43,325 nucleotides of DNA from Actinomycetales bacterium. Lineage in GTDB: Bacteria; Actinomycetota; Actinomycetes; Actinomycetales; Kineosporiaceae. The translations under genes were made by a program, and so were the position numbers. Location: contig JAAYAH010000123.1 in assembly GCA_012719445.1 (NCBI GenBank), positions 1 to 43,325 on the forward strand, written 5' to 3'. Shown here piece by piece: positions 3,625-43,325 of this stretch; positions within the stretch are counted from its first letter, which is position 1; each line of letters opens with the position of its first letter. Under the pieces are notes generated by a model. It had not been told where the DNA came from and searched no databases. It saw nothing but the letters and a program-made list of their open reading frames with translations.

Positions 3625-4038
3625 ATGCCGACGCTCGTCGTCGACGCCACCGACCCGGTACCGCCGTACGAGCAGTTGCGCCGGCAACTGGCCGAGCTCG
3701 TGGTCTCCGGGGTGCTCGGGCCGGGGGAGCGGCTGCCGCCGCTGCGGCAGCTCGCCTCCGATCTCGGGCTCGCGGTGGGGACGGTCGCCCGCACCTACCG
3801 GGAGCTGGAGACCGCCGGGCTGGTCCGGTCCCGTCGCGGCGGGGGGACCCGGGTGGTGGACGAGCCGCCCACGGTCCCCGGTGACCGGTTGGCGGAGCTG
3901 CTCCGCGAGCACGCCGCCGGCTACGTGCACCGGGCCCGGCTGCTGGGGGCGCCGGACGACGCCGTTCTCGACGCCGTCCGGCAGGCGCTCACGACGTCCT
4001 GGTCCGCACCGGGATCTCGCGGACCAGCCCCCAGGTGA
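3625..4038 (+). CDS. GntR family transcriptional regulator (YtrA-like, short)
   Basis: A 137-residue DNA-binding repressor candidate. The N-terminal winged helix (about 10-75) has the GntR hallmarks: PPYEQLRRQLAELVVSGVL, GERLPPLRQLASDLGLAVGT, then RTYRELETAGLVRSRRGGGT. The effector part is only about 55 residues, as in the YtrA subfamily. The ATG at 3625 has GGGGGAGGGG close upstream; a GTG at 3604 overlapping the previous stop is an alternative. Its 3' end overlaps by 50 bp the 3' end of the convergent permease gene. Likely target: the inverted repeat at 2531-2596. Confidence 0.85.
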   Translation: MPTLVVDATDPVPPYEQLRRQLAELVVSGVLGPGERLPPLRQLASDLGLAVGTVARTYRELETAGLVRSRRGGGTRVVDEPPTVPGDRLAELLREHAAGYVHRARLLGAPDDAVLDAVRQALTTSWSAPGSRGPAPR

Positions 4039-4708
4039 TGGCCAGTCCGACGGCGTACCCGGCGAGGCAGGAGAGCATGCCGATCGGCAGTCCGAGACTG
4101 GACTCGCCGAGGAGCCGGCTGACGAACGGCAGACCGTTGATCCCCGTGGCGACGCTGGCGAGGATCGCCAGGACAACGGCGGGCAGCAGGGCGATCACCC
4201 CCCAGCCCTCGTCCGCGCCGGTGAAGCCGGCCCCGAGGAAGGCTCCGACCGTCGTCCAGAGCAGGAGCAGCACCCAGTAGCACAGGGCGATGAGCCAGAA
4301 CTGGTCCGGGGCGTCGAACAACCGCTCGTCCGCCAACTGCTGCCGCCAGCCCGCGAGGCCGTAGACCCCCTTCTCCAGCAGGTACCCCAGGGCCAGCAAC
4401 GCCCCCAGCACGCCGGTCAGCGCGGCGACGAAGCAGGAACTCTGGATCATGAACTCCCGGCGGGTACGTCCGTGCGCGATGCACAGCGGCAGCATCCGGG
4501 TGGTCAGGTAGGCGCCGTAGCCGAGGGCGAACCAGCGCAGGATCGGTACGGCGATGTCCCAGACGCTGTGGTTCACCGTGCCGACGACCGCGACGACACC
4601 GGCGGCCGCGGTGAGGAGTACCGCGACCGGGACCCACAGCAGGACGAGGAAGGGCAGGTGGGTCGAGAAGAGCAGGCGGGCGACGGCCCAGTGCCGGAAG
4701 CGACTCAT
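3989..4708 (-). CDS. ABC transporter permease-like membrane protein
   Basis: A 239-residue membrane protein with about six hydrophobic segments (near 18-42, 52-68, 88-108, 135-160, 168-188, 205-228). It overlaps the upstream ATP-binding gene by ATGA, so it is the expected membrane partner of that ATPase. Order regulator, ATPase, permease is the usual layout of YtrA-type ABC operons in Gram-positive bacteria, many linked to antibiotic or envelope stress. Sequence alone does not show the substrate. The 3' end runs 50 bp into the convergent GntR gene on the other strand. Confidence 0.75.
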   Translation of the reverse strand: MSRFRHWAVARLLFSTHLPFLVLLWVPVAVLLTAAAGVVAVVGTVNHSVWDIAVPILRWFALGYGAYLTTRMLPLCIAHGRTRREFMIQSSCFVAALTGVLGALLALGYLLEKGVYGLAGWRQQLADERLFDAPDQFWLIALCYWVLLLLWTTVGAFLGAGFTGADEGWGVIALLPAVVLAILASVATGINGLPFVSRLLGESSLGLPIGMLSCLAGYAVGLAITWGLVREIPVRTRTS

Positions 4709-5652
4709 CGCGGCCCTCCGTCGGGGTCGGTGCGGTGGACGTCGGGGTCGGTGAGATGGATGAAGAGGTCCTGCAGGGCCATCGGGGTGAGGTCGAGTCC
4801 CGCCTGCCCGGCCCGGACCCGGTCGGCGTCGTCGAGGTCGCCGAAGACGGTGACCTCGACGGTGCGACCGAGTCGTCTCTCGCCGAGGGTCGTCATGCCC
4901 GCCGTGAAGGTCTCGACCGCCGCGGCGTGGCCGGTCACCGTGGTGCCGCGGGCGAGCAGGGTGTCGGTCTCCTCCTGGACGACGAGCCGGCCCCTGTCGA
5001 GGATCAGGACCTCCTCGAACAGGGGTGCCTGCTCCTCGATGAGGTGGGTGGAGACGACGACCGTGCGCGGGGAGGCCCCGACCTCGGCGATCAGCTCCTC
5101 CTGGAACGCCTCCCGGCTCGGGGCGTCCAGCCCCAGATGAGCCTCGTCGAACATGAGCAGCGGGGTCCGGCTCGCCAGCCCCACCACGATCCCCAGCGCC
5201 GACCGCTGACCACGGGAGAGATCCTTCACCTTCCGGTCCAGCGGTACCCCGAACCGGTCGACCAGCCGTCGCGCGTACTCGGCGTCCCAGCTCGGTCGCA
5301 GGTGCCTCGCGATGTCGAGGGTCTCCTTGACCCTGTCGTCCCCGTCGCCGACGTCGCCGGACTCCCGGATCAGGCAGACCTGCCGGGTGATCCGGCTGTT
5401 CTCGAACACCGGCTCTCCGGAGACGAGGACCTCTCCCGCCGAGGCCCTGCGGAACCCGGCCAGCACGGACAGCAGGCTGGTCTTCCCGGCCCCGTTCCGC
5501 CCCAGCAGGCCGTAGACGCGGCCTCCTGGGAGGGAGAGGCTCAGGTCGTCGAGAGCGACGGTCCTGCCGTAGCTCAGCCGGAGCTGTCGCACCTCGACAT
5601 CGACGGTCACCGGGGGCACCGTCCCCTCGGCGTCGACCCGTGCGCGGGTCAT
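4705..5652 (-). CDS. ABC transporter ATP-binding protein
   Basis: A 315-residue nucleotide-binding subunit. Walker A is GRNGAGKT (51-58), the signature LSRGQ (145-149), Walker B LLMFDE (165-170) followed by AHLGLD, and the switch His lies in VVVSTHLIEE. Usual ABC ATPases have LSGGQ, so the Arg is a mild variation. The C-terminal 100 residues are a regulatory extension typical of drug or bacteriocin exporters. The gene overlaps the YtrA-like regulator upstream (start 5652, regulator stop 5649) and the permease downstream by 4 bp each, indicating one transcript. Confidence 0.92.
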   Translation of the reverse strand: MTRARVDAEGTVPPVTVDVEVRQLRLSYGRTVALDDLSLSLPGGRVYGLLGRNGAGKTSLLSVLAGFRRASAGEVLVSGEPVFENSRITRQVCLIRESGDVGDGDDRVKETLDIARHLRPSWDAEYARRLVDRFGVPLDRKVKDLSRGQRSALGIVVGLASRTPLLMFDEAHLGLDAPSREAFQEELIAEVGASPRTVVVSTHLIEEQAPLFEEVLILDRGRLVVQEETDTLLARGTTVTGHAAAVETFTAGMTTLGERRLGRTVEVTVFGDLDDADRVRAGQAGLDLTPMALQDLFIHLTDPDVHRTDPDGGPR

Positions 5653-6017
5653 CGGACGTCCTCGTTCATCGACTGCTCGATTCTCTTGACGATCTCGCCG
5701 AGCGGGATCCCGATCGCCCTGGCCTCGGCCACCATCGGATCCACCACGTCACCGAAGAAGCTCTCCCGGCGGCGGGCCCTGAGCGCCGCAGGGGCGTCCG
5801 GGCTGACGAACATGCCCACCCCGCGCCTCTTGTAGAGCACTCCCTCGTCGACGAGCTGCTGGAAGGCCTTGGCTGCGGTCGCCGGGTTGATCCGGTAGTA
5901 CGTCGCGTACTGCGTCGTCGACATGACCTGCTCGTCGGCGAGCAGGACCCCGTTGAGCACGTCAGCCGTGATCCGCTCGGCGATCTGGCGGTAGATCGGG
6001 CTGCGGTCGTCGAACAT
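5649..6017 (-). CDS. GntR family transcriptional regulator (YtrA subfamily)
   Basis: A roughly 122-residue repressor candidate of the ABC operon it heads. It opens with FDDRSPIYRQIAERI and continues with a winged helix including STTQYATYYRINPATAAKAF and LVDEGVLYKRRGVGMFVS, close to the YtrA consensus. The C-terminal dimerisation part is short. I chose the ATG at 6017 because GGAG lies five bases upstream; an in-frame ATG at 6041 lacks a ribosome site and would add eight residues. The promoter at 6056-6084 leaves a leader of about 30 bases to 6017. Stop and ATPase start overlap. Confidence 0.88.
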   Translation of the reverse strand: MFDDRSPIYRQIAERITADVLNGVLLADEQVMSTTQYATYYRINPATAAKAFQQLVDEGVLYKRRGVGMFVSPDAPAALRARRRESFFGDVVDPMVAEARAIGIPLGEIVKRIEQSMNEDVR

Positions 6018-6055
6018 CGGGGCTCCGGCTCTGTGGTTCATTACTGATGTAAAGA

Positions 6056-6084: not shown

Positions 6085-6245
6085 CCCGTCCGAGCGGTGG
6101 CGCCGGGGGAGGTCCGGTCGGGCCCAGGGCCCGGGCGGCGGGAACACCGGGGACCGGGCCGGGGAGTACGGGCCGGGGAGTACGGGCCGGGGAATACCGA
6201 GGGCGGTCGTCGGCGTTGCCCGCGCGGCGCGATCGAAGGAGGGGC

Positions 6246-7058
6246 ATGAACCGGGACGCCGAGACCGAGTTCGACCGACAGGTGGGGGTGCTGCTCGACC
6301 GGGGGTACCCGGCGCTCGCGGGGATCACGGAGCCGGAGTTCGCCGCCGTGGTCGAGCCGCTGCGGGACCTCGTCCGCACCGAGGTGCCGGTGCTCGACGG
6401 CAGGGGGACGACGTCCCGGGTGCCGTTCGTCGTGGTCACCCCGCCCGCGGCGATCAGGGCGGAGGACCTCGTCCCCACGCTCTCGCTGGTGGACGGCGGG
6501 CAGGCGGGGATCCTCGACCGCAACCACGGCGAGGCCGGACTCGCCCCCTACCGGCCGTTGCCCTGGCTCGGGGTCCCGGACTCGGGGGCCTACCTGCTGC
6601 TCGACGTCGAGCGGGGCGAGGAGTTCTGCGGTGTCCGGCCGGAGGACGCCCTCCCGGTGGTGCGCGGCCGCGGCCGCAGCCCGCTGACCGTTCACGAGGG
6701 CATCGCCCTGGTCACCGCGTTCCCCGCGGTGCTGGAACGGAACCGGTGCTTCATGCTCGCCGGGTCACGGCGTGGCGACCGGAGGGTTCCCGCGCTCTGG
6801 ATCTCCGGGCGGGCGCCGAAGCTCGGTTGGTGCTGGGACGGGAACCCGCACAGCTGGCTCGGGACGGCATCGACCGCCCGCCGGGTGTCGGCGCAGCCGG
6901 GCGGGCACGGGGACGGCGGGGCGGAGGGCGTCGGCTCCGGGGCTGCGGGACCGGTCCCGGTCGGCGCGGAGTGGTCGCCGGGACGGCGAGGGCCGGGGGA
7001 CACCGTCTCCCCCGGCCCTCGCCGTCACCCGGGCGGGCTCAGACCAGGGTCGGCCTGA
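6246..7058 (+). CDS. DUF5701 family protein with an unusual C-terminal extension
   Basis: A 270-residue soluble protein starting at an ATG behind AAGGAGGGG. The first 205 residues look like the actinobacterial DUF5701 family: FDRQVGVLLDRGYPALAGIT near the start, a central VPFVVVTP and DGGQAGILDRNHGEAGLAPY, and PKLGWCWDGNPHSWLGTAS near residue 200. No function is known to me. The last 65 residues are Gly/Arg/Pro-rich and are encoded across a perfect 19-bp hairpin (6982-7026), and the end overlaps the convergent gene by 20 bp. The tail may be an accidental read-through after loss of the original stop. Confidence 0.8.
   Translation: MNRDAETEFDRQVGVLLDRGYPALAGITEPEFAAVVEPLRDLVRTEVPVLDGRGTTSRVPFVVVTPPAAIRAEDLVPTLSLVDGGQAGILDRNHGEAGLAPYRPLPWLGVPDSGAYLLLDVERGEEFCGVRPEDALPVVRGRGRSPLTVHEGIALVTAFPAVLERNRCFMLAGSRRGDRRVPALWISGRAPKLGWCWDGNPHSWLGTASTARRVSAQPGGHGDGGAEGVGSGAAGPVPVGAEWSPGRRGPGDTVSPGPRRHPGGLRPGSA
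6982..7026. terminator. Bidirectional terminator-like hairpin
   Basis: A perfect 19-bp stem (6982-7000 with 7008-7026) and a 7-base loop, with no T tract, as is common in high-GC actinobacteria. It sits 12 bases after the stop of the minus-strand deacetylase gene and inside the 3' end of the plus-strand DUF5701 frame. Confidence 0.75.
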
Positions 7059-10000
7059 CCGCGTTGGAGCGTCGTGACGCGGGCCCGGTGCCGACGGCGT
7101 TGACCGCCCGGACGGTGAACGAGTACCTCAGACCGGGCAGCAGGCCGGTCACCCGGAGGCTGGTCGCCGTCGCCGAGGCGCTCACGGTCTTCAGCAGCAG
7201 CGAACTCGTCCCCGAGTACACCAGGACCCGGTAGCCGGTGATCGCCGATCCGCCGTTGCTGGTCGGGGCCGTCCAGCGGACGGTCGCGGATCGCGCACCG
7301 GGGGCCGCGGTCCCGATGGTGGGGGCCGACGGCACGGTGCGCGGGGTCACCGCGGCCGAGCGGGCGGACTCCGCCCCGGTGCCCGCCGCGTTGGTCGCGG
7401 CGACGGTGAAGGTGTACGCCGTCCCGTTGACCAGACCGGTCACGGACACCCAGGTCGCCGTCGCGGCGGCGGTCACGGTCCGCTCCGGGGTCGTCCCGGT
7501 TCCCGCGTAGGCCCTGACCTGGTAGCCGGTGATCGCCGACCCGCCGTTGCCGGTCGGGGCCGTCCAGCGGACGGTGGCCGCGGCGTTGCCTGCGGTCGCG
7601 GTCCCGATGGTGGGGGCCGACGGCACGGTGCGCGGGGTCACCGCGGCCGAGCGGGCGGACTCCGCCCCGGTGCCCACTGTGTTGGTCGCGGCGACGGTGA
7701 AGGTGTACGCCGTCCCGTTGACCAGCTCGGTGATCGCGGTGTCGGTGGCCGGAGCCGTGACGGTCACGGTCCGCTCCGGGGTCGTCGCGGTCCCCCGGAA
7801 CACCTGGACCCGGTACTCGGTGACCGGTGACCCGCCGTCGTCCGTCGGGGCCGTCCAGCGGACGGTCGCCGAGGTGTCGCCGGGGGCAGCGGTCCCGATC
7901 GTCGGTGCGCCGGGCGCCACGACGGGGGGAGTGAGCGGGGTGATCAGCGCTGTCCGCGCCGAGGGCTCGCCGGCACCCACGCCGTTGACGCCGGTCACCG
8001 AGAACGTGTAGCCGGTGCCGTTGACCAGGTCGGTCACCCTGAGCTCGGTGGCGTCGGCCGGGGCGTCGAGGGTGCGGACCGGGGTGTCTCCGTCGCCCTC
8101 GAACACCTGGACGGTCCACCCGGTGACGGGTGTGCCGCCGTCGCCGGTCGACGTCCAGGTCACCACGGCCGAGGCGTCACCGGCGGTCGCGGAGGCGGTC
8201 GGCGCCGGGGGCGTCGTGACGCCGACGTAGCCGCCCATCGGGGTGGGCGGCACCGCGACCACGGTGTCCGTCGCCCCGCCGGGGAGCCATCCGGAGAGCT
8301 CGCCGTCGTAGGGCTCCAGGGTCACGCCGCCGGTGTCCGTCCCGGTGGGGACGGTGAGCGGGACCTCGACCCCTGCGGCCCCGGAGACGTGCACCCCGGT
8401 CGTGTCGACGTAGGCGGAGACGGTGTCGCGGGCCGTCGTCCAGGCCGTCGCCCGGGTGAGCGCCCTGGCCTGTCCCGTCAGGCCGGTGTGGACCAGCGGG
8501 GACATCGTCGTGTCGACGGAGGAGTCGTAGGCGTCGAGGATCCCCTGGACGATCGGGTAGAGGATGCCGTCCTCGGCGAGGTTGGACTGGTGGGCGAAGA
8601 ACGGCCGCGGGTCGCCGGAGAGGATGTACCGGAGGGCGATGCTCACCTCCAGCGGCTTGATGTAGCCGTGGAAGCTGTTCTCCGCCTGCGCCGGGGTCGC
8701 CGCGGGCAGCGGGGTGATGCAGGTGCTCGTCATCGGGTTGGCCGAGCAGATGCCGCTGCCGCCGTCGGCGGCACTGGTGTAGATCCAGTTGTACTCGTCG
8801 ACCTCCTCGGTGAAGGTGGCCGCGTTGTAGTACACGTTCAGGGGGTGGCGCGGCGCGGTCGTGGCCGGCCCGACCACCCGCTCGGTGCTCTCCCGTGAGG
8901 CGTCGGAGGCGAGCGTCGACACCCCGGCGCCGGCGAGCGCGGGGGCGAGGAACGGGTTGTCGGCCACCTGCTGCGGCAGCGTCGCCAGGCCGGAGTGCTC
9001 GCCGGTCACCAGCTCCTCCGGGTCGAACCGGGTGAGCGAGGCGCCGGTCGCCCAGGCGGTGTTGTCCTGGATCTCCTTCCGGATCGCCGCCTCGGACAGC
9101 CACCTGGTGTCCCCGGACACCGCGGTGTCGGTGAGGGCGAGGTCCTCGTTGAGGAACGACGACTGCGGGTCGCCCGGACCGGCGCACCGCCACTGCCCGC
9201 CGGGCTGGGCCGGTGCGAGCTGGACACAGCCGAGGAACGTGTGGGTGTAGGTGTGGTTGATCCAGTGGAACCGGTTCTCCACCGTCGAGGCGGTCAGCGC
9301 CGCGGTCAGCGGGTCGGTCCCGTTGTTCGCCAGGGCGGCCGTGACGCTGCCGGCCGCGTTGAAGACCAGGTCCGGGGCGAACCCGGTCGCGTCGACGAAG
9401 TCGACGAGCCGGGTGACGTCCGCCGGGGTCATCCGGATGTCCGTGGTCTGCAGGGCCGGGTTGGTGCAGGTGTCACCGGGGGTGCAGTCGCCGGCGACGC
9501 TCCACCGGCTGTCCGGCAGCAGCACGTCGTCGACCTGCACCGCGAGGTGGTTGCGGTGGTGGCCGAGGTGCAGGCCCCTGGTCATCCAGGTGACGATCCC
9601 GTGGCCCAGCTGGGAGAACCAGCGCTGGTTCTCCGAATAGGCGACGGTGATGACCAGCTCCTCGCGGAAGTCATGCGCGAACACGCCGATGACGGAACCC
9701 GTCACGGTGCTGCCGTTCTCACCGACGGCGGAGGCGGTGACCAGCGGGGTGAAGGACTGCCCCGCCGGTGGGTCGGGCAGGCCGTTCACGAGGTAGCCGT
9801 ACGTCTCGCCCATCGACGCCGAGTCGTCGTCGAACGTCACCGGGCCGTCGATCGCCGGGAAGGCCGCGGAGCGACCGGCCGTCGTCACCGTCGCCTGGCG
9901 GCCGTCGAGCGTTCCCGAGTAGTCGGCGTAGTTGACCCCGAACGAGGGGTTCGGCCAGACGTAGCTGTTCACGTGGCGGACGCCGTACTCCCGCTCGTAG

Positions 10001-10455
10001 GACGCGACGGCCGCCTGCTCCGCGGCACTCAGCAACCCGGAGCCGGTCGGGCCGGAGGTCACGATCGCCTGGTACCGGCCGGTGCCCGTGCCGGCGTCGG
10101 CGAGGAAGTCGGGGGTGATCTGGTCGGAGCCGTCGAGGTTGACGGCGGTGTAGGGAACGCCCTCGCGGTCCATCAGGGCGACCAGCGCACCCGTCGTCGC
10201 GGAGCCGTCGAGGAGGACGAGGACCCGCAGGTCCACCCGCTTCCCGGTGGCGGACCCGGTGGCGGCGTCAGCCGGGGGCGGGGGTGCCGCCGTCACCGCC
10301 GCGAGGGCGGCGAGGACGGTCAGGGCAGAGGTCAGCAGGGCGAGGGCTCTCCGTCGCCGGGGCGGCGGGGCCGGGTCGGCGCAGCGTCGAGGTGCGCGGT
10401 GGCCGGCTGCTCGCCGGGATCGATCGCTGGTGGGCTGGTGATGCTCTGGATGCAT
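7039..10455 (-). CDS. Secreted Agd3-like polysaccharide deacetylase with four FN3 domains
   Basis: A 1138-residue exported protein. The ATG at 10455 follows GAGGGG and leads into an Arg-rich n-region, a hydrophobic core (about 38-55) and a likely signal cleavage near PADA-ATG (64-65). Residues 70-740 resemble Agd3, the founding CE18 deacetylase acting on fungal galactosaminogalactan: QVDDVLLPDSRW (from about 307) supplies a metal-binding Asp pair, HWINHTYTHTFLG (from about 397) the His residues, and FFAHQSNLAEDG lies near 620. Four FN3 domains follow (about 750-1138). It is divergent from a PelF-like/Sph3-like operon, which supports a role in trimming an amino-sugar polymer. CE18 assignment is by motif recall. 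Confidence 0.75.
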   Translation of the reverse strand: MHPEHHQPTSDRSRRAAGHRAPRRCADPAPPPRRRRALALLTSALTVLAALAAVTAAPPPPADAATGSATGKRVDLRVLVLLDGSATTGALVALMDREGVPYTAVNLDGSDQITPDFLADAGTGTGRYQAIVTSGPTGSGLLSAAEQAAVASYEREYGVRHVNSYVWPNPSFGVNYADYSGTLDGRQATVTTAGRSAAFPAIDGPVTFDDDSASMGETYGYLVNGLPDPPAGQSFTPLVTASAVGENGSTVTGSVIGVFAHDFREELVITVAYSENQRWFSQLGHGIVTWMTRGLHLGHHRNHLAVQVDDVLLPDSRWSVAGDCTPGDTCTNPALQTTDIRMTPADVTRLVDFVDATGFAPDLVFNAAGSVTAALANNGTDPLTAALTASTVENRFHWINHTYTHTFLGCVQLAPAQPGGQWRCAGPGDPQSSFLNEDLALTDTAVSGDTRWLSEAAIRKEIQDNTAWATGASLTRFDPEELVTGEHSGLATLPQQVADNPFLAPALAGAGVSTLASDASRESTERVVGPATTAPRHPLNVYYNAATFTEEVDEYNWIYTSAADGGSGICSANPMTSTCITPLPAATPAQAENSFHGYIKPLEVSIALRYILSGDPRPFFAHQSNLAEDGILYPIVQGILDAYDSSVDTTMSPLVHTGLTGQARALTRATAWTTARDTVSAYVDTTGVHVSGAAGVEVPLTVPTGTDTGGVTLEPYDGELSGWLPGGATDTVVAVPPTPMGGYVGVTTPPAPTASATAGDASAVVTWTSTGDGGTPVTGWTVQVFEGDGDTPVRTLDAPADATELRVTDLVNGTGYTFSVTGVNGVGAGEPSARTALITPLTPPVVAPGAPTIGTAAPGDTSATVRWTAPTDDGGSPVTEYRVQVFRGTATTPERTVTVTAPATDTAITELVNGTAYTFTVAATNTVGTGAESARSAAVTPRTVPSAPTIGTATAGNAAATVRWTAPTGNGGSAITGYQVRAYAGTGTTPERTVTAAATATWVSVTGLVNGTAYTFTVAATNAAGTGAESARSAAVTPRTVPSAPTIGTAAPGARSATVRWTAPTSNGGSAITGYRVLVYSGTSSLLLKTVSASATATSLRVTGLLPGLRYSFTVRAVNAVGTGPASRRSNAVRPTLV
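7308..7725. repeat. Recently duplicated FN3-coding segment
   Basis: Positions 7308-7434 and 7599-7725 match at 124 of 127 bases with a 291-bp period, equal to one 97-residue FN3 domain. The three mismatches are clustered (GCCGCG against ACTGTG). The block around 7228-7279 also recurs at 7519-7570. Neighbouring FN3 copies are more diverged, so this pair arose by recent tandem duplication or gene conversion. Confidence 0.85.
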
Positions 10456-10864
10456 GGCTGGGATCCCCTCCACGGAGTCGTCGCGGGCGCCGGGGCCGGG
10501 CGGGGCGTCGGGACGTCCACGACCGGAGCGGCGGGGCTCTCGGTGGGGCGGGTGTCGTCCCGGATGGCGGGTTCCGCCCCGGAGCGACGACTCCGCCCCA
10601 CGGCTCCGCGAGGAGCGAACCCCACGCCGAGCCCCGCCGGTCGTGGGCCTGATGGCTCACTGCGGGACCGTCGGATGCCGCGATCGTTACCCGAAACATC
10701 CTTTCGGGGTTTAGTGATCTTTACGACACTTCCGGCGACAATCATCCGAACGGTCCATGTGAGTGATCTGTTCGGAGTAATGACCGGCATGTGCGCCGAC
10801 TCCCGGTCTCGGATGTGGTGCTCTGTAATGGAACGCGATCGGCAGGTGGGGGAGGGTCCGAGCG
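10456..10864. other. Divergent control region of the polysaccharide locus
   Basis: A 409-bp gene-free region between the starts of the deacetylase and glycosyltransferase genes. The half nearest the deacetylase is GC-rich. Positions 10680-10830 are clearly more AT-rich than the surroundings and hold an inverted repeat (10690-10708), so both promoters probably lie there. I cannot assign exact -10/-35 boxes. Confidence 0.5.
10690..10708. promoter_or_regulatory. Perfect inverted repeat in the divergent promoter region
   Basis: CCCGAAA, five bases, TTTCGGG: a perfect 7-bp dyad with a 5-base spacer in the AT-richer part of the divergent region. It could be an operator for a dimeric regulator of both transcripts. 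No regulator gene is adjacent. Confidence 0.45.
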
Positions 10865-12328
10865 ATGAAGGTCTCGCTGATCGTCGAGGGGTGTTATCCC
10901 TTCGTGACCGGCGGAGTCAGTACCTGGTGCGATCAGCTCATCCGTGGGCTCCGGCAGCATTCCTTCGAGGTTGTCGCCATCACCGGGTCCAGCGGGCAGC
11001 GTCCGCTCCTCGACCTGCCGGAGAACGTCCTCTCCCTGCGCACCGTCGCGCTGTGGGACTGGGTTCCCCCGCGCTGGCGGTCTCCGCGGTCGATCCGCAG
11101 GGCGTTCCTCGACGCCTACCGACCCTTCCTCCTGGCCGTGCTCGACCCGGCCGTACCCCAGCAGGCGTTCACTGACGGCCTCCGCGAGTTGTTCGTCCTC
11201 GCCCAGGCCACCGACCTCGCCCTCGCCCAGCGCTCCGAGGAGGCGGTGAGCCTGCTCGCCGAGACCTGGCACGAGGTGTTCCCGGACCGGCGGATGAGCC
11301 TGCGGGACGCCGTCGAGGCCACGGAGGTCGTCGAGCACCTGCTGCTGCCCCTCTCCGAACGCGTCATCGAGGCGGACGTCAGCCACGCGGCGTCCAACGG
11401 GCTGCCGGCGCTGATGGGACTCGCGGCCAAGTGGCGGTACGGCACCCCCCTGGTGATGTCCGAGCACGGTGTCTACCTGCGGGAGAGGTACCTGTCCTGC
11501 AGGGGGGCCGGCTACCGGTGGCCGGTGAAGACCATGCTGCTCTCCCTCATCCGCCGCATCTGCGTCTCGGCCTACGCGGCCTGCGACACGATCGTCCCGG
11601 TGAACGTGTACAACCAGCGCTGGGAGGTCAGGAACGGGGCGGACCCCGACGCGATCTCCACCTCCTACAACGGGGTCGACGCCGCGTCCTTCGCCCCGGC
11701 GAGCGGTGAGCCGGAGACGCCGACGATCGGCTGGGTGGGCAGGATCGACCCGCTCAAGGACCTCGAGACGCTGGTCAGGGCGTTCGCCCTGGTCCGAGAG
11801 ACGATCCCGGAGGCCGTCCTGCGGCTGTTCGGCCCGGTGCCGGAGGGCGGGGAGTGGTACGAGCGCCGGATCCGGGCGCTGGTGGACGAGCTGGGTCTCA
11901 CCGCGTCGGTGACCTTCGAGGGGCCGGTACGGCCGGTCGCCAGGGCCTACCACGCGTCGACCGTCGTGGCCCTGTCGAGCATCTCCGAGGGCCTGCCCTA
12001 CACGGTGATGGAGGCCATGATGTGCGGTCGTACCACCGTGTCCACCGCCGTCGGCGGGGTGCCGGAGATCGTGGGCGACACCGGCGTCGTCGTCCCCCCG
12101 CGGGACCCGGGCGCGCTCGCCAAGGGGTGCATCGGGCTGCTGGACGACCCGGAGCGGCGCGCCTGCCTCGCCGAGAGCGCGAGGGCGCGGGCGATCGAGA
12201 GGTTCTGCCTCGAACGCATGCTCGAGGCCTTCGACGGGGTGTACGAGGAGGTCACCCGCAGGCACCGGAACCTGCTGGCCTCCCGGTTCCAGGCCGCCGG
12301 ACCGGTGCCGGCGGCGGTGGGGAGGTGA
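10865..12328 (+). CDS. PelF-like GT4 family glycosyltransferase
   Basis: A 487-residue cytoplasmic glycosyltransferase of GT-B fold, predicted to polymerise a sugar from a nucleotide donor. The start follows GGGGGAGGG. It begins MKVSLIVEGCYPFVTGGVST, matching the glycine-rich N-terminal loop of PelF proteins. EHGVYLRERY (from residue 200) is a PelF-type motif, and the GT4 EX7E motif is E375-GLPYTVM-E383, followed by GGVPEIVGDTGVVVPP. PelF of Pseudomonas uses UDP-GalNAc/GlcNAc; that donor is only inferred here. The stop overlaps a possible GTG of the next gene, and three genes run on without a gap. Confidence 0.85.
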   Translation: MKVSLIVEGCYPFVTGGVSTWCDQLIRGLRQHSFEVVAITGSSGQRPLLDLPENVLSLRTVALWDWVPPRWRSPRSIRRAFLDAYRPFLLAVLDPAVPQQAFTDGLRELFVLAQATDLALAQRSEEAVSLLAETWHEVFPDRRMSLRDAVEATEVVEHLLLPLSERVIEADVSHAASNGLPALMGLAAKWRYGTPLVMSEHGVYLRERYLSCRGAGYRWPVKTMLLSLIRRICVSAYAACDTIVPVNVYNQRWEVRNGADPDAISTSYNGVDAASFAPASGEPETPTIGWVGRIDPLKDLETLVRAFALVRETIPEAVLRLFGPVPEGGEWYERRIRALVDELGLTASVTFEGPVRPVARAYHASTVVALSSISEGLPYTVMEAMMCGRTTVSTAVGGVPEIVGDTGVVVPPRDPGALAKGCIGLLDDPERRACLAESARARAIERFCLERMLEAFDGVYEEVTRRHRNLLASRFQAAGPVPAAVGR

Positions 12329-12330
12329 CC

Positions 12331-13797
12331 GTGCGCGGCACGACGTCCCTCGGACGACAGCCTGTCGACGACGAGATCGCCGGTGCGGATCCGGTCGCCC
12401 TCCTGGCCAGGCAGTACGACGAGCTGTGCTCCCTCGCGGCCGACCGGTTCGAGATCGCGGCCGGGCTCGAGGCCGAGGGGGTGAACGACCAGCAGGCCCG
12501 CAGGACCTTCGGGTTCGCCAGCGTCTTCGAGCTCGCCGAGCACCTCTTCGAGACCGTCCCGCGGCGGCCGTCGGAGCCGGAGGCCCCGGAGAACCCCTGG
12601 CACCGGCCGGTCGGTCGGCACCTGGCCCGTGGGCTGCTCTACGTGCTGCCGGGACTGGTCTACGTGGTGGCCGTGCTCGGCCTCGGCACCCGGGCCGACG
12701 CCCGGGTGCTGCTCGGCGCGACGGCGGTCTCGGTGGCCCTGTCCCAGGCGCTCTCGGTGCTCGGACACGCCCTGCACGGCCGGGGGGAGCACCTGGCGGC
12801 CCGGCGGCTGTTGCGCGGGGCCGTGCTCGCGGGGGTCGGCGGCGGGGGAGCCCTGCTGCTGGCCGCCCGGCCGGGCGCGGTGACGGCACCCGGAACCGCC
12901 GTCCTCGCCTGGCTCCAGCTGGTCTACCTCCTCGCGGCCACCGTGCTCCTCGTCCTCGACGACGAGCACGTCCTGCTCGCCGTCCTCGCGCCCGGGGTGC
13001 TGGTGGCGCTCGGGGCGCTGACCGGCGCCCTGGACGACGTGCCGTCCCGGCTGGTCCGGGCGGCCCTCGGCGGGTGCGTCCTCGCCACGGTGGTCGTCGC
13101 CCTCGTCCGGGCCGGTCGTCCGGCCCGGGGCGGCGCCGGACGGTCGGGGCAGCGCCTCGGCACCGCGCTGGGCGGCGGCGAACTCCGGCTGGCCTGCGGC
13201 CACCTCCTGGCCGGGCTCACCACGGTGGGGCTCGCGTCCTTCGCCGTCGTCGACGCCGTGACCGGCCCGGGGCGGGCACAGGGGGTCTCCGTCTGGCCGG
13301 CCATGCTGCCCCTCCTCGCCGGGCTGGGCCCCGCGGACTGGCTGCTGCACCGGTTGCGCGGGTTCGGCGTCCTGCTCCAGCACCAGGTGACCTCGGCCGA
13401 GACCTTTCGGACCAGGACCAGATCCCGGCTCACGGCGGTCGTGGCGGCCTTCGCCGCCGCCGAGACGGCCGTCGCGGGCGTCGTCGTGGTCGTGTCCGCC
13501 GCCGCCGGTGGTCGTCCCGGTCCGGCGGAGGTCCTCGACACCTACGCCTACGCCCTGCTCGGGGTCTGCTTCCTGCTGGTCACCGTCCTGCTGTCGCTCG
13601 GGCTGCACCAGGTGGTCCTGGTCTGCACCGGTACGGCCCTGGTCGTGGACGCCGTCCTGCGCTGGACGGTCGGGACGACCGGCGGACCGGGGACGCTGCT
13701 GCTGGCCTCCGCCCACCTGGCGGTGATCGTGGGGTTGCTGATGGCGCTGCTCCTGGTCTCCCTCACCGAGTACTCGAGCGTGGCGAGGCACCGGTGA
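12331..13797 (+). CDS. Twelve-TM membrane protein of the polysaccharide operon (PelG-like role?)
   Basis: A 488-residue protein with a soluble N-terminal part (about 1-85, containing EIAAGLEAEGVNDQQARRTF and a VFELAEHLFE segment) followed by about twelve hydrophobic helices to the end. I recall similar proteins in actinobacteria next to PelF-like glycosyltransferases, without known function. Helix number and position between GT4 and hydrolase genes fit a PelG-like exporter or flippase, but I see no diagnostic PelG sequence motif. The GTG at 12331 has GGGGAGG five bases upstream; a GTG at 12325 inside the previous stop is an alternative. Its stop overlaps the next start (GTGA). Confidence 0.7.
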   Translation: MRGTTSLGRQPVDDEIAGADPVALLARQYDELCSLAADRFEIAAGLEAEGVNDQQARRTFGFASVFELAEHLFETVPRRPSEPEAPENPWHRPVGRHLARGLLYVLPGLVYVVAVLGLGTRADARVLLGATAVSVALSQALSVLGHALHGRGEHLAARRLLRGAVLAGVGGGGALLLAARPGAVTAPGTAVLAWLQLVYLLAATVLLVLDDEHVLLAVLAPGVLVALGALTGALDDVPSRLVRAALGGCVLATVVVALVRAGRPARGGAGRSGQRLGTALGGGELRLACGHLLAGLTTVGLASFAVVDAVTGPGRAQGVSVWPAMLPLLAGLGPADWLLHRLRGFGVLLQHQVTSAETFRTRTRSRLTAVVAAFAAAETAVAGVVVVVSAAAGGRPGPAEVLDTYAYALLGVCFLLVTVLLSLGLHQVVLVCTGTALVVDAVLRWTVGTTGGPGTLLLASAHLAVIVGLLMALLLVSLTEYSSVARHR

Positions 13798-13841
13798 GCC
13801 GGGGGAACGCCGTGCCGGTGAGCCCGGGGAACGCCGTGCCG
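13794..13841 (+). repeat. 24-bp tandem duplication at a start codon
   Basis: Positions 13794-13817 and 13818-13841 are near-identical 24-mers, each beginning GTGAGCC and ending GCCGTGCCG. The duplication doubles the possible GTG start of the hydrolase gene and keeps the frame. Confidence 0.8.
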
Positions 13842-14543
13842 GACGGCCTGCTGGACCTCGTGGTCCCGGTGTACGTCCACCCGGACGAGGCCCCGCACCG
13901 GTGGCAGCGCCTGGCGTCGATGGCGGACCGGGTGCGGATCGCCGTGGTCAACGTGCACGACGGGCCCGGCTCGGGCAGGGACCCCGCGTACCTGTGCGCC
14001 GTGCACGCCCTCCGGCTGTCCGGGATCCGGGTCGCCGGGTACGTGGACACCGGCTACGGGCGGCGGACCGTCACCGAGGTGGCGTCGGACGTCGCCGCCT
14101 ACCGGCGCTGGTACGACCTGGACGCGGTGTTCCTCGACCAGGTGTCCTCGGGACTCGCCGAACTGGACCACTACGCGGACTGCGTCCTCGGGGCCAGGTC
14201 GGAGGGGGCGCGGTTCGTCACCCTCAACCCCGGGACCCATCCCCACCCCGGGTACGTCGACCTCGCCAACCTCACGGTCACCTTCGAGGGCACCTGGGTG
14301 GACTACCGGAGGCTCGACGTGCCGTCCTGGGTCGCCGCCCGCCCGGCGAGCCGTTTCTGCCACCTCGTGTACGACGTCCCGCCGTGGGCGTTCGCCGAGG
14401 GCGTGCGGCTGGCCGGTCGGCGCAACGTCCGCAGCGTCTTCCTCAGCGACGGGCACGGGGCCAACCCCTGGGACCGGTGCCCGACCAGTCTCGCGGAGGT
14501 CATGACCCGCGCGGGGGAGCAGAGCTGGCCGGACACCGGGTGA
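13794..14543 (+). CDS. Spherulin-4/Sph3-like glycoside hydrolase (GH135-type)
   Basis: A 249-residue TIM-barrel-type protein. It shows the spherulin-4 pattern: LLDLVVPVYVHPDEAP near the start, RVRIAVVNVHDGPG, GIRVAGYVDTGYG, AVFLDQVSS with D115-Q116, FVTLNPGTHP, TVTFEGTWVDY with E165, and FCHLVYDVP. Sph3 of Aspergillus cleaves N-acetylgalactosamine stretches of galactosaminogalactan. As I recall, Sph3 has Asp-Glu where this protein has Asp-Gln, so activity is uncertain. No signal peptide is seen, unusual for an exopolysaccharide hydrolase. The first 16 residues come from a 24-bp tandem duplication, leaving a second possible GTG start at 13818. Confidence 0.82.
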   Translation: MSRGNAVPVSPGNAVPDGLLDLVVPVYVHPDEAPHRWQRLASMADRVRIAVVNVHDGPGSGRDPAYLCAVHALRLSGIRVAGYVDTGYGRRTVTEVASDVAAYRRWYDLDAVFLDQVSSGLAELDHYADCVLGARSEGARFVTLNPGTHPHPGYVDLANLTVTFEGTWVDYRRLDVPSWVAARPASRFCHLVYDVPPWAFAEGVRLAGRRNVRSVFLSDGHGANPWDRCPTSLAEVMTRAGEQSWPDTG

Positions 14544-14681: not shown

Positions 14682-15878
14682 TCACCCCTTGACGCACATC
14701 ACCTGCCGCAGCCTGGTGACGATCTCGACGAGGTCGGCCTGGTTGGTCATCACCTCGTCGATGTCCTTGTACGCGGCCGGGATCTCGTCGACGACCCCGG
14801 AGTCCTTGCGGCACTCGATCCCGGCGGTCTGTGCGACCAGGTCCGCGGTGTCGAAGCGGCGCCTGGCCTCGGCCCTGCTCATCCTGCGCCCGGCGCCGTG
14901 TGACGCCGAGCAGAAGGACTCCGGGTTGCCGAGACCGCGGACGATGTAGCTCGCCGTCCCCATCGAGCCGGGGATGATCCCCAACCGTCCGGCCTCGGCG
15001 CTGATCGCCCCCTTGCGGGTGACCAGGACGTCGAGGTCGTCGTGCCGTTCCTCGGCGACGTAGTTGTGGTGGCAGGAGATCGGCGTCCCGAACCCGACCT
15101 GCGGGAGGAGCCTCCGCAGCACGCCGGTGTACAGGTCGAGCATCGCCTCGCGGTTGCACCGCGCGTACTCCTGGGCCCAGAACAGGTCGTGCCGGTACGA
15201 CCGCATCTCCTCGCTGCCGTCGAGGAGGACGGCGAGGTCGCGGTCGGGCAGGTCCGTGTTGTGCGGCAGGGACTTGGCGACCCCGATGTGGTGCTCCGCG
15301 AGTTCCTTGCCGATGTTGCGGGACCCGGAGTGCAGCATCAGCCACACCCGGGGGTCACCCTCCGCCGGGCTGGGACCGTCCCCGGCGTCCTCGAGGCAGA
15401 GCTCGATGAAGTGGTTCCCGCCGCCGAGGGTGCCGAGCTGCCGCTGGGCCCGGGACAGCCGGGCGTGCACCGCGGGCGCCAGGTGCTCGAAGGACGCCCA
15501 CAGCGGCAACCGCTCGACCGTGCGCGAGGCCTCCTCGTGGCCGCGGTGGCCGACCGGGATCGCCGCCTCGACGGCGGAGCGCAGCGCGCCTAGGTCGTCG
15601 GGCAGTTCCGCGGCGGTGAGGGTGGTCCGGACCGCCGTCATCCCGCAGCCGATGTCGACCCCGACGGCGGCGGGGCTCACCGCGCCCCGCATGGCGATCA
15701 CCGAGCCGACGGTCGCCCCCTTGCCCAGGTGGACGTCGGGCATCGCGGCGACGTGGGAGTGCACCCAGGGCAGTGACGCGATCCGGCGCAACTGGTCGAG
15801 GGCCGCCGACCCGACTTCCTCCGGCCGGGCCCACATCCGCACGGGCACCGTGCCTCCGCGCAGCGTCGCCAGTGCCAT
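14682..15878 (-). CDS. rtcB: RNA-splicing ligase RtcB
   Basis: A 398-residue RNA ligase that joins 2',3'-cyclic phosphate (or 3'-phosphate) to 5'-OH ends using GTP and Mn2+. Family motifs are all present: PDVHLGKGATVGSV, VDIGCGM with the metal-binding Cys, GTLGGGNHFIE, LMLHSGSRN, SCHHNYV and SASHGAGRRMSR, which carries the guanylated His. The length fits actinobacterial RtcB. I chose the ATG at 15878 behind AAGGGGGACGAG; the frame is open further upstream but that part has no family similarity. No archease or rtcA/rtcR gene is nearby, so its RNA target is unknown. Confidence 0.95.
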   Translation of the reverse strand: MALATLRGGTVPVRMWARPEEVGSAALDQLRRIASLPWVHSHVAAMPDVHLGKGATVGSVIAMRGAVSPAAVGVDIGCGMTAVRTTLTAAELPDDLGALRSAVEAAIPVGHRGHEEASRTVERLPLWASFEHLAPAVHARLSRAQRQLGTLGGGNHFIELCLEDAGDGPSPAEGDPRVWLMLHSGSRNIGKELAEHHIGVAKSLPHNTDLPDRDLAVLLDGSEEMRSYRHDLFWAQEYARCNREAMLDLYTGVLRRLLPQVGFGTPISCHHNYVAEERHDDLDVLVTRKGAISAEAGRLGIIPGSMGTASYIVRGLGNPESFCSASHGAGRRMSRAEARRRFDTADLVAQTAGIECRKDSGVVDEIPAAYKDIDEVMTNQADLVEIVTRLRQVMCVKG

Positions 15879-16092
15879 CTCGTCCCCCTTCTCGGTGCCG
15901 GCCGTCCCGGCAACCCCTCCGCCCCACCGGCGCGGTGCCGTCCCGGGGTCCCCGGGTCCCGCCCACGCGGTGCCGGACAACGCGGTCGATCATGACAGCA
16001 GGGGTCGGCCGATGCCACGGGATTCCCCGCCGGGTCCTCAGGGACCGCGACGGGGAAGGTGTCGATCGCGCGGCTGGGGGTAGGAACCGAGC

Positions 16093-41175: not shown

Positions 41176-41958
41176 CCTGCCTCCTCTCAGTGACCGATCC
41201 TTCACCAAAATGACGGTGTGTCGCTGACAAACGGTGATGCCCGGATGCCCTGAGGGGCAGGGGATCTGCGGAGGCGGGCAGAGGGTCTGCGGCGGCGGGC
41301 AGAGGGTCTGCGGCGGCGGGCAGAGGGTCTGCGGCGGCGGGCAGGGGGTCTGCGGCGGCGGGCAGGGGATCTGCGGCGGCGGGCAGGGGATCTGCGGAGG
41401 CGGGCAGAGGGTCTGCGGAGGCGGGCAGGGGGTCTGCGGAGGCAGGCCGCGCGCCGTCGGGCGGCCCGGCGGGAATGGGCATGGTCGTCGTCGGCCCGGG
41501 GACGTACCCGGCCGGGAAGTCCGACGTCCGCGGTTCCTTTTCCCGTGCGGAACTCCGGTACGCGGTTTTCCACCGGGTGGTGTCGGCCGTGGGAATGGGG
41601 TTCCTGGCCGGTGGTGATTATCGAGTGTTACCAGTGTGTTGATCGTGCGGGCGGCCACGATCCTCGCGCGGGGGTCCGGTGATCGGGGAACTCTCTCGTC
41701 CGCGGTGTCAGCGGTGCCGGTTCCGCGGTGCCAGCGGTGCTGACGATGGTGGGTGGGGTCGCGGCGGTGGGGGTGGTCCACCTTCACTTCCCGGTTGCCC
41801 GTCGTTTCCGGGATGTCTTCTCGGGAATAGGTGTCGCACTGTCGGGATGCCCTTTTGGGAAGTCGTGTCTGCCCCTTCGGGAATGGGGCTTCGGATTCTC
41901 GGGGGTCGACGATTTCCGAGGTACCGTGCCGGAATCGCGTCGAAGAGGAGGTATCGGG
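41176..41958. other. 783-bp region between divergent genes
   Basis: No supported gene. From left to right: an AT-richer stretch (41190-41240) likely holding the promoter of the minus-strand gene, the 21-bp minisatellite (41255-41443), then about 500 bp with moderate GC, including AT-richer patches near 41530-41640. GGGAATGGG or GGGAATAGG occurs four times (41471, 41591, 41823, 41879), possible regulator sites for the cellulase gene. Confidence 0.5.
41255..41443. repeat. Nine-copy 21-bp minisatellite
   Basis: Units start every 21 bases from 41255 to 41423. The consensus is GGGCAGRGGRTCTGCGGMGGC, with variation at only three or four positions. Being a multiple of three and stop-free, it creates heptapeptide-repeat open frames in several reading frames, which is why long false frames cross it. 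No spacer diversity, so not CRISPR. Confidence 0.92.
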
Positions 41959-43325
41959 ATGAGGCTGCGAACGGGTGTGGTGGGACCGCGGATCGCGGCG
42001 ATATCCGTTGGCGGCGCGCTCGTCCTGGGTGCCGGCCTGACGGCACCGGCGGCCCCCGCGCAGGCCGTCGTCGCCTGTGCGGTGCAGTACCGGCAGGACC
42101 AGTGGCCGGGTGGGATGACCGTCAACATCACTGTCCGGAATCTCGGGGATCCCCTGACGGACTGGGCCCTCGACTTCACCTTCCCCACCACGGGACAGCG
42201 GATCATGCACGGGTGGTCGGCCACGTGGACCCAGACGGGCAGGGACGTCACCGCGCGCAGCCTGCCGTGGAACGCGGTCATCCCGGCCGGCTCCTCGGCG
42301 ACCATCGGTTTCGTCGGCTCCTGGTCGAGCACCAACCCGGTCCCGACGTCCTTCGCGGTCTCGGCCACCGGCGGGACCTGCGGACCGGGGCCGGTGACCC
42401 TGACCTCCACGACCCCGACGACGACCAGCACAACGACGACCTCGACGACGACCACCACGACGACCACCACGACGACCACCACGACGACCACCACGACGAC
42501 CACCACGACGACTCCGACCACGACCAGTACGACGACGGGGGACTCCCGGCTGGACAACCCCTACCTCGGGGCGACGGTCTACGTGAACCCCGAGTGGTCG
42601 GCGAAGGCCGCGGCGGACGGCGGACAGGCGATCGCCGACCAGCCGACCGCGATCTGGCTGGACAGCATCGCGTCCATCACCGCACCACCCGGATCCGGGT
42701 ACGACACCGGGCTGCGCGAACACCTGGACAACGCGCTGGAGCAGGGGGCCGACCTCGTCCAGGTGGTCGTCTACGACCTGCCCGGTGGCCGGTGCGCGCT
42801 GCTCTCCCCGCACGGTGAGCTGGAGGTGGACGAACTCGAGGTGTACCGGACCGAGTTCATCGACCCGATCGCCGAGATCGAGGCCGACCCGAAGTACGCG
42901 GACCTCCGGATCGTCAACATCATCGAGCCCAACTCGCTGCCCAACCTGCTCACCGGCACCGGCAACCTCGAACGGCCGGAGTGCAACGTCCCCCTGATCG
43001 CGGACACCTACGTCGGCGCGGTCGTCCACGCGCTGTCCGCGCTGCACGCCGCGGGGCCGAACGTCTACAACTACCTCGACGCCGCCCACCACGCCTGGCT
43101 CGGCTGGGAGACCAACTTCCGTCCGGCCGCCCAACTGTTCGCGAGGGTCGCCCGCCAGGCCACCGGAGGGGTGGGCACCGTCCAGGGATTCGTCACCAAC
43201 ACCGCCGGCTACGCCGCGACCCGGGAGCCGTACTACACCGCGACCACCGTCGTCGCCGGGGTGTCCGTCCGGCAGTCGCGGTGGGTGGACTGGAACAACT
43301 ACGTCGACGAGCTCTCCTTCGCGAC
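41959..43325 (+). CDS. Secreted CBM2-GH6 cellulase homologue (3' end outside window)
   Basis: The first 455 codons of a gene that continues past the window. ATG 41959 follows GAGGAGG. It has a signal peptide (about 1-33, ending APAQA), a CBM2 (about 34-145; GGMTVNITVRNLGDPLTDWA, WNAVIPAGSSATIGFVGSWS), a Thr-rich linker (about 152-193) and a GH6 domain from about 197: NPYLGATVYVNPEWSAKAA, VYNYLDAAHHAWLGWETNF, GFVTNTAGYAATREPYY and RQSRWVDWNNYVDELSFA. Known GH6 enzymes cut cellulose from chain ends or internally. The two GH6 signature sites read VVYDLPGGRCA (usual PxRDC) and IIEPNSLPN (usual EPD), so both signature Asp residues are missing at about 278 and 325. Confidence 0.88.
   Translation, partial: MRLRTGVVGPRIAAISVGGALVLGAGLTAPAAPAQAVVACAVQYRQDQWPGGMTVNITVRNLGDPLTDWALDFTFPTTGQRIMHGWSATWTQTGRDVTARSLPWNAVIPAGSSATIGFVGSWSSTNPVPTSFAVSATGGTCGPGPVTLTSTTPTTTSTTTTSTTTTTTTTTTTTTTTTTTTTTTTPTTTSTTTGDSRLDNPYLGATVYVNPEWSAKAAADGGQAIADQPTAIWLDSIASITAPPGSGYDTGLREHLDNALEQGADLVQVVVYDLPGGRCALLSPHGELEVDELEVYRTEFIDPIAEIEADPKYADLRIVNIIEPNSLPNLLTGTGNLERPECNVPLIADTYVGAVVHALSALHAAGPNVYNYLDAAHHAWLGWETNFRPAAQLFARVARQATGGVGTVQGFVTNTAGYAATREPYYTATTVVAGVSVRQSRWVDWNNYVDELSFA

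Follow-up and report, generated by a model that had tools for sequence, protein, structure and literature searches.

A conserved actinobacterial gene set with Agd3-, PelF- and Sph3-type members, a candidate exopolysaccharide locus of the Pel/galactosaminogalactan type

Aspergillus requires the proteins Agd3 and Sph3 for its adhesive galactosaminogalactan (GAG), and the Pel polymer in biofilms of Pseudomonas and Bacillus requires PelF. Here we describe a locus in an Actinomycetales bacterium of the family Kineosporiaceae that encodes an Agd3-like deacetylase, a PelF-like glycosyltransferase, a protein with 12 transmembrane (TM) helices and an Sph3-like hydrolase of family GH135. The locus lies at positions 7039-14543 of contig JAAYAH010000123.1 (assembly GCA_012719445.1), whose 43,325 analysed nucleotides are called the window below. 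Judging from sequence comparisons and predicted structures, it is probably a synthase-dependent exopolysaccharide system, and its product would be an aminosugar polymer of the Pel/GAG type that is cationic through partial de-N-acetylation.

Several described systems resemble this locus. The GAG cluster of Aspergillus fumigatus consists of uge3, sph3, ega3, agd3 and gtb3 (PMC4817252). The window carries predicted functional counterparts of agd3, gtb3 and sph3, whereas two related loci (L026 and L134) carry counterparts of all five genes, because galE and a GH114 gene join the set there. The fungal Gtb3 is a single putative transmembrane glycosyltransferase, but its predicted counterpart in the window consists of two genes. 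Moreover, fungal Sph3 is described as membrane-bound and as acting where the polymer exits from Gtb3 (PMC12054363), whereas the window GH135 protein is predicted to be cytoplasmic. Genes for the 4-epimerase (galE) and for GH114 are not linked to the window locus.

The pelDEADAFG operon of Bacillus cereus (PMC7112168, PMC13254593) shares a PelF synthase and a polytopic membrane partner, which is PelG in that system, and also encodes a deacetylase that is extracellular, has three domains and resembles Agd3 in the N-terminal one. In the window, however, PelG is not recognisable by sequence, the deacetylase is of the Agd3 type and a GH135 protein replaces PelAH. The window genome also yielded no match to PelD (profile PelD_GGDEF), although the control genomes likewise gave none.

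The closest precedent is found in Actinobacteria, where operons with Agd3 have already been reported, some of which include Spherulin-4 (Bamford et al. 2020, PMC7229062). Those operons and the window locus have in common an Agd3 homologue, a cytoplasmic glycosyltransferase, a multi-span membrane protein and, in some cases, Spherulin-4, whereas GH114 is reported to be highly consistent there and is missing from the window locus. Thus, this kind of locus is already known as a prediction in Actinobacteria, and the window locus joins it. A literature search covering titles and the beginnings of abstracts found no experimentally characterised actinobacterial GAG-like system, and the study just cited came closest. 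Beyond the available part of that account, we describe the fold of the membrane protein, GH135 proteins that lack an export signal, an additional gene module related to LegB, two types of locus with their frequencies, and the presence of both types in one genome.

Layout and conservation of the gene set

The reading frames define a deacetylase gene on the minus strand and, divergent from it, an operon of three genes on the plus strand.

7039..10455, minus strand: Agd3-like secreted polysaccharide deacetylase (CE18/CBM87 type) with a C-terminal fibronectin-III tail (profiles, solved-structure search, predicted fold)
10456..10864, no strand: divergent region of 409 bases from the deacetylase gene to the operon (sequence scan)
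10865..12328, plus strand: PelF-family GT4 glycosyltransferase, with DUF3492 and GT4 (profiles)
12325..13797, plus strand: 12-TM protein (profiles, predicted structure)
13794..14543, plus strand: GH135 (Spherulin4/Sph3) glycoside hydrolase without a visible signal peptide or TM anchor (profile, alignment, hydropathy)

An original prediction made from the DNA letters had described an Agd3-like deacetylase facing an overlapping operon for a PelF-like GT4 enzyme, a 12-TM protein and an Sph3-like hydrolase. All four genes are found at that place, and the start and stop codons within the operon overlap by 4 bases at 12325-12328 and at 13794-13797. Three of the four proposed family assignments also hold, those to PelF and GH135 by profile and that to Agd3 by a search of solved structures together with the predicted fold.

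To survey related loci, contigs were scanned with a profile of the PelF alignment, and the best 80 of at least 576 confirmed relatives were kept by their similarity to the window PelF (L092 looks like the same locus as L020 within this set). These best 80 loci come mainly from Streptomyces and Kitasatospora, but also from Actinomadura, Streptoalloteichus, Actinoplanes, Catenuloplanes, Kineosporia and some metagenome-assembled genomes (MAGs). Partner genes were then sought with profiles, each based on the sequences of two to four loci. Agd3 was found in 74 of the 75 loci that have 3 kb of upstream sequence, with L027 as the miss and with weak matches in L068 (104 bits) and L097 (65 bits). The 12-TM protein is encoded in every locus with 2 kb of downstream sequence (78/78), and the GH135 protein (Sph) in 64 of 66 loci with 6.5 kb downstream, the misses being L065 and L097.

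A sample of 396 genomes from the phylum, which were not chosen for PelF, gives a similar picture from the opposite direction. Spherulin4 is rare in this sample, occurring at 19 places in 11 genomes, and at 16 of these 19 a PelF match above its cut-off is found no more than 6 kb away (14 of 17 when the window genome's own two are left aside). Under a null expectation of 2% per place, 16 of 19 corresponds to P ~6e-25, a value that treats related genomes as independent although they are not. In a sample of 198 genomes from the order, eight Spherulin4 places occur in seven genomes and PelF adjoins seven of the eight, including the places in G118, G122 and G135. The exception (G002) is near a contig end.

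The Agd3/PelF/TM/Sph set is a conserved unit by these sequence comparisons, and its conservation in other genomes excludes a chance origin of the four-gene arrangement. Neither a placement of these proteins in unrelated families nor a failure of their genes to co-occur, either of which would have spoken against the original prediction, was found. Sequence and predicted fold thus establish which families the genes belong to, how they are arranged and that they are conserved as a unit.

Properties of the encoded proteins

The Agd3-type deacetylase contains the following features, all on the minus strand.

10262..10359, minus strand: signal-peptide-like N-terminal segment, RRRR followed by a hydrophobic stretch (translation, by eye)
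9883..10236, minus strand: match to CBM87 of Agd3 (profile)
9526..9531, minus strand: DD pair, motif CM1, aligned with the catalytic base D377 and metal ligand D378 of Agd3 (alignment)
9241..9255, minus strand: HxxxH metal motif, CM2, aligned with H510/H514 of Agd3 (alignment)
8590..8592, minus strand: catalytic acid His, CM4, aligned with H668 of Agd3 (alignment)
7054..8226, minus strand: four fibronectin type III repeats (profile)

The sequence of this protein matches the solved Agd3 structure 6nwz with E=1.7e-9. A structural model built with an alignment of 31 sequences (mean pLDDT 87.6) superposes over residues 8-677 on residues 142-806 of 6nwz, with Z 28.8, a root-mean-square deviation (rmsd) of 2.7 A over 549 residues and 21% identity. 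This is the comparison with Agd3 that the original prediction had proposed, and it bears the assignment out. The model spans all three Agd3 domains in the order CBM87, CE and beta domain (Foldseek E 4.8e-30). The next structural neighbours are the human heparan-sulfate N-deacetylase NDST1 (Z up to 23.1) and deacetylases of the CE4 type (up to 14.5). Thus, the predicted structure settles the family of the deacetylase as the Agd3 type.

A DD pair and an HxxxHxxxH string had been put forward as the metal site. Both are present, but only part of the second is conserved: in the string HWINHTYTH the last two His are kept in 31 of 31 rows and match the HxxxH of Agd3, whereas the first is kept in 2 of 31. 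Together, the DD pair, the HxxxH motif and the CM4 His supply five residues that are invariant in all 31 rows in the columns aligned with 6nwz. The fibronectin type III repeats are missing from the deacetylase paralogue encoded elsewhere in the same genome (L019).

The glycosyltransferase and the hydrolase are placed by the profile search that the original prediction had called for, in which both pass their cut-offs and the Agd3 profiles stay under theirs. The PelF profile NF038011 scores 174.2 bits against a cut-off of 100 and is covered in full length, with residues 3-460 of the protein on profile positions 2-489, and DUF3492 and GT4 are matched as well. The Spherulin4 profile scores 116.7 bits on the GH135 protein against a cut-off of 30.2 (E 1.6e-33).

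For the 12-TM protein, Pfam gives no match and NCBIfam none of note. A model made from 38 sequences (pLDDT 89.8) contains 12 long helices, and a MATE/MOP transporter fold covers residues 89-490 of the predicted structure, preceded by a small helical N-terminal domain at residues ~20-80. The model aligns with MATE1 (Z 22.4, rmsd 5.0, 375 residues), NtMATE2 (Z 22.0, rmsd 4.5, 385 residues), WzxE (Z 18.7) and MurJ (Z 18.0). The original prediction had called for a comparison with PelG. The predicted fold of the 12-TM protein agrees with a PelG-like role, since PelG is assigned to the MOP superfamily, but an identification as PelG is ruled out at the level of sequence by the Pfam profile and profile-profile alignments discussed below. 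The functional analogy is kept via the MOP fold, and on the strength of the model the 12-TM protein can stand in for PelG without being PelG by sequence.

Two candidate catalytic residues of the GH135 protein can be aligned with Sph3.

14136..14138, plus strand: D115, aligned with the Asp of the GIFFDE strand of Sph3 (alignment; invariant in 24/24 rows)
14286..14288, plus strand: E165, aligned with the catalytic Glu222 of Sph3 (alignment)

The strand Asp that aligns with D115 would be D166 of Sph3 (offset +50). The nucleophile of Sph3 is printed as Asp196 in PMC12054363, and Asp196 falls at an insertion of the alignment between the window protein and Sph3, so the assignment of the Asp is tentative.

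The GH135 proteins of these operons appear to lack export signals. Export was gauged by the hydropathy of 15-residue segments within 60 residues before the GH135 fold, a simple measure rather than a trained signal-peptide predictor. The measurement was possible for 80 of 82 operon-linked copies, the other two having only 7 and 11 open residues before the fold, and none of the 80 reaches a hydropathy of 1.6 (highest 1.37). By contrast, four of five copies that are encoded separately or on the opposite strand exceed 2.1. The fifth of these, in L137, has a hydrophobic stretch further upstream, which shows that a signal lying far from the fold can escape this measure. Both forms are present once each in L026, and L132 and L137 have separate GH135 genes that encode signal peptides. 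The window protein has no hydrophobic N-terminal stretch by this measure, so the membrane-anchored or exported placement of Sph3 appears not to apply to it. These observations on sequence suggest that operon-linked GH135 works in the cytoplasm and has a role in synthesis.

The candidate polymer and alternative readings

In the proposed mechanism, the PelF-type GT4 enzyme would polymerise UDP-GalNAc in the cytoplasm, and the MOP-fold protein would thread the chain across the membrane in the place of PelG. The two proteins would then be a split version of the fungal Gtb3, in which a GT4 domain and a membrane protein are combined. Outside the membrane, the secreted Agd3-type enzyme would strip acetyl groups and thereby render the polymer cationic and adhesive. 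The GH135 protein would act on the nascent chain at the cytoplasmic face as an enzyme of release, length control or editing.

That the product contains GalNAc is something we infer from the company the locus keeps. By bit score, and among the rows compared, all four window proteins have their closest relative in L026, from a Frankiaceae MAG. For the 12-TM and GH135 proteins L134 and L135 come next, for the deacetylase L134 is second, and for PelF the order is L026, L134, L027 and L135, where L027 is an incomplete copy located on a different contig of the MAG that contains L026. A galE gene (330-340 bits, cut-off 262.3) is the next gene upstream of pelF in L026, L134 and L135. GH114 occurs in L026, L133, L134, L136 and L022, and GlmS is encoded close to the L026 locus. 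Elsewhere in its genome, the window organism carries matches to GalE (312.9 bits) and GH114 (170.8 bits), and this GalE would supply the UDP-GalNAc, since galE sits in the operons of the nearest relatives. Taken together, the sequence data support, but do not show, UDP-GalNAc as the donor.

Another sugar must be considered because the genome has a second, complete locus of seven genes on contig C2 (L019:2527-11223). All seven are on one strand and encode Agd3, PelF, the TM protein, a LegB-like dehydratase, a nucleotidyltransferase, a second SDR and Sph. The LegB-like SDR scores 447-456 bits on TIGR04180, just under the cut-off of 475 (447 for the C2 copy). Among 66 loci, 26 have all three genes of this module (dehydratase, nucleotidyltransferase, second SDR), 39 have none and one has two. 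The TM and Sph genes enclose the module, on the same strand, in 25 of these 26 loci, and in the remaining one (L065) Sph was not found. The presence of the module points to a 6-deoxy sugar in those loci. The window and C2 loci might even share one donor made by these three enzymes, in which case both would build their polymer from a 6-deoxy-N-acetylhexosamine (FucNAc or QuiNAc, for example) and not from GalNAc. We consider this unlikely. The module is missing from the window locus, L026, L028, L066, L134 and L135 in the stretches examined (1.4 kb upstream of pelF for L066), L026, L134 and L135 carry galE instead, and the published PelF, GH135 and CE18 enzymes belong to systems for GalNAc polymers. 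In a quick tree that leaves out L133-L136, the window PelF groups with the MAG loci L026, L028 and L066 of other families, all of which lack the module, and the C2 PelF groups with loci of the Kineosporia family; both groupings come with long-branch warnings.

Under another reading, the locus is a diverged but otherwise canonical Pel system whose PelG is the TM protein. This would agree with a PelF score above the cut-off, with the fold of the TM protein, which is that of the MOP superfamily to which PelG is assigned, and with the joint presence of PelF-PelG, an Agd3-type deacetylase and GH135 in L127 and L128. It would nonetheless be surprising, as the Pfam profile for PelG (PF16933) matches none of the 38 members of the TM family at E 0.1, hhalign gives a probability of 0.1 between this family and four real PelG proteins (the PelG profile being shallow), and a search of the whole window genome found no PelG match. 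Even less plausible is a set of genes that breaks down fungal or bacterial GalNAc polymers instead of making one. GH135 and GH114 are families of hydrolases that degrade such polymers, and L132 and L137 do have separate GH135 genes with signal peptides, but a PelF-type synthase and the 12-TM MOP-fold protein are constant partners in these loci, where the operon-linked GH135 proteins have no visible export signal.

Several observations besides the failed matches to PelG and the LegB-like module weigh against a synthase-dependent system of the Pel/GAG type. Contig C80, which holds the window, carries neither GalE nor GH114 according to the whole-genome searches. The Pfam scores of the deacetylase are below the cut-off of 27.6 bits, at 24.2-25.3 for the CBM87 domain of Agd3 (PF25116) and 17.3-19.6 for Agd3_CE (PF25115), and PF25116 reaches 28.1 bits in the genome search when neighbouring pieces are counted. 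The position of the CM4 Met (M666 of Agd3) is occupied by Phe in the window deacetylase. Published work on Agd3 describes M666 as highly conserved, and its mutation abrogates adhesion. M666 is a conserved position, however, and not what defines the CE18/CBM87 family. For the membrane protein, the Foldseek E-value of the MATE match is weak (9.4e-4). Three of the 19 Spherulin4 places in the phylum sample have no PelF nearby (G539:C13 and two in G558), and one operon-linked GH135 gene (L071:15600-16392) is the sole copy noticed with a Tat-like N-terminus (SRRKVLRD, by eye).

A broader picture joins these features, although we hold it tentatively and would sooner doubt than assert it as a whole. 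GH135 might be a cytoplasmic subunit of the synthase near PelF and the MOP-fold exporter, where it releases, sets the length of or transglycosylates the nascent chain, while separate secreted GH135 genes keep the function of remodelling. The MOP-fold proteins would be a family of exporters for GalNAc-type polymers distinct from PelG, and the LegB loci would represent a second chemotype with a 6-deoxy-aminosugar.

Streptomycetes and their relatives are central to industry. If they indeed make a polymer of the proposed Pel/GAG type, one guess is that it could serve surface attachment or pelleting, and these organisms would offer genetically tractable bacterial models for the fungal GAG pathway. 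The apparently cytoplasmic GH135 makes the role of Sph3-type enzymes during synthesis directly testable. The system also bears on the published idea that fungi obtained the GAG cluster from bacteria (PMC7229062, PMC4817252).

Variant loci and neighbouring genes

A mixed Pel/GAG arrangement occurs in two genomes of one genus with a GC content of ~0.70 (L127:6465-13052 and L128:5342-11931), where the gene after a canonical PelF-PelG pair encodes a deacetylase of the Agd3 type, and a GH135 gene with a signal peptide is on the opposite strand. At L022:1-7208, PelF, a membrane protein of 433 aa and a GH114 lipoprotein are encoded between two genes of the Agd3 type. That membrane protein has 9 TM segments by crude hydropathy and does not match the profile of the window TM protein, and GH135 was not found within the 12 kb examined. 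Two loci of the Kineosporia family carry a lipoprotein-like gene without a Pfam match between agd3 and pelF (L020:9799-10461 and L021:6214-6969).

Within the window locus, the deacetylase gene starts with ATG at 10455, and an in-frame GTG is present at 10473. The GH135 gene read from the GTG at 13794 encodes 249 aa; a mechanical frame of 705 aa that also ends at 14543 was rejected, as its start is much too early for this gene. A scan of the divergent region 10456-10864 for sigma-70-type sites and intrinsic terminators found no consensus of either kind.

The 3' end of the deacetylase gene overlaps tail to tail, by 20 bases (7039-7058), with that of a DUF5701 gene on the plus strand (6216-7058). 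Beside the locus, one minus-strand run at 3989-6041 encodes a GntR-type regulator, an ABC ATPase and a putative membrane protein (by eye). Immediately downstream of the operon, a gene for an RtcB RNA ligase is located on the minus strand (14682-15980). Farther along the window, the reading frame at 41784-42557 contains a long poly-valine run that is probably a simple repeat.

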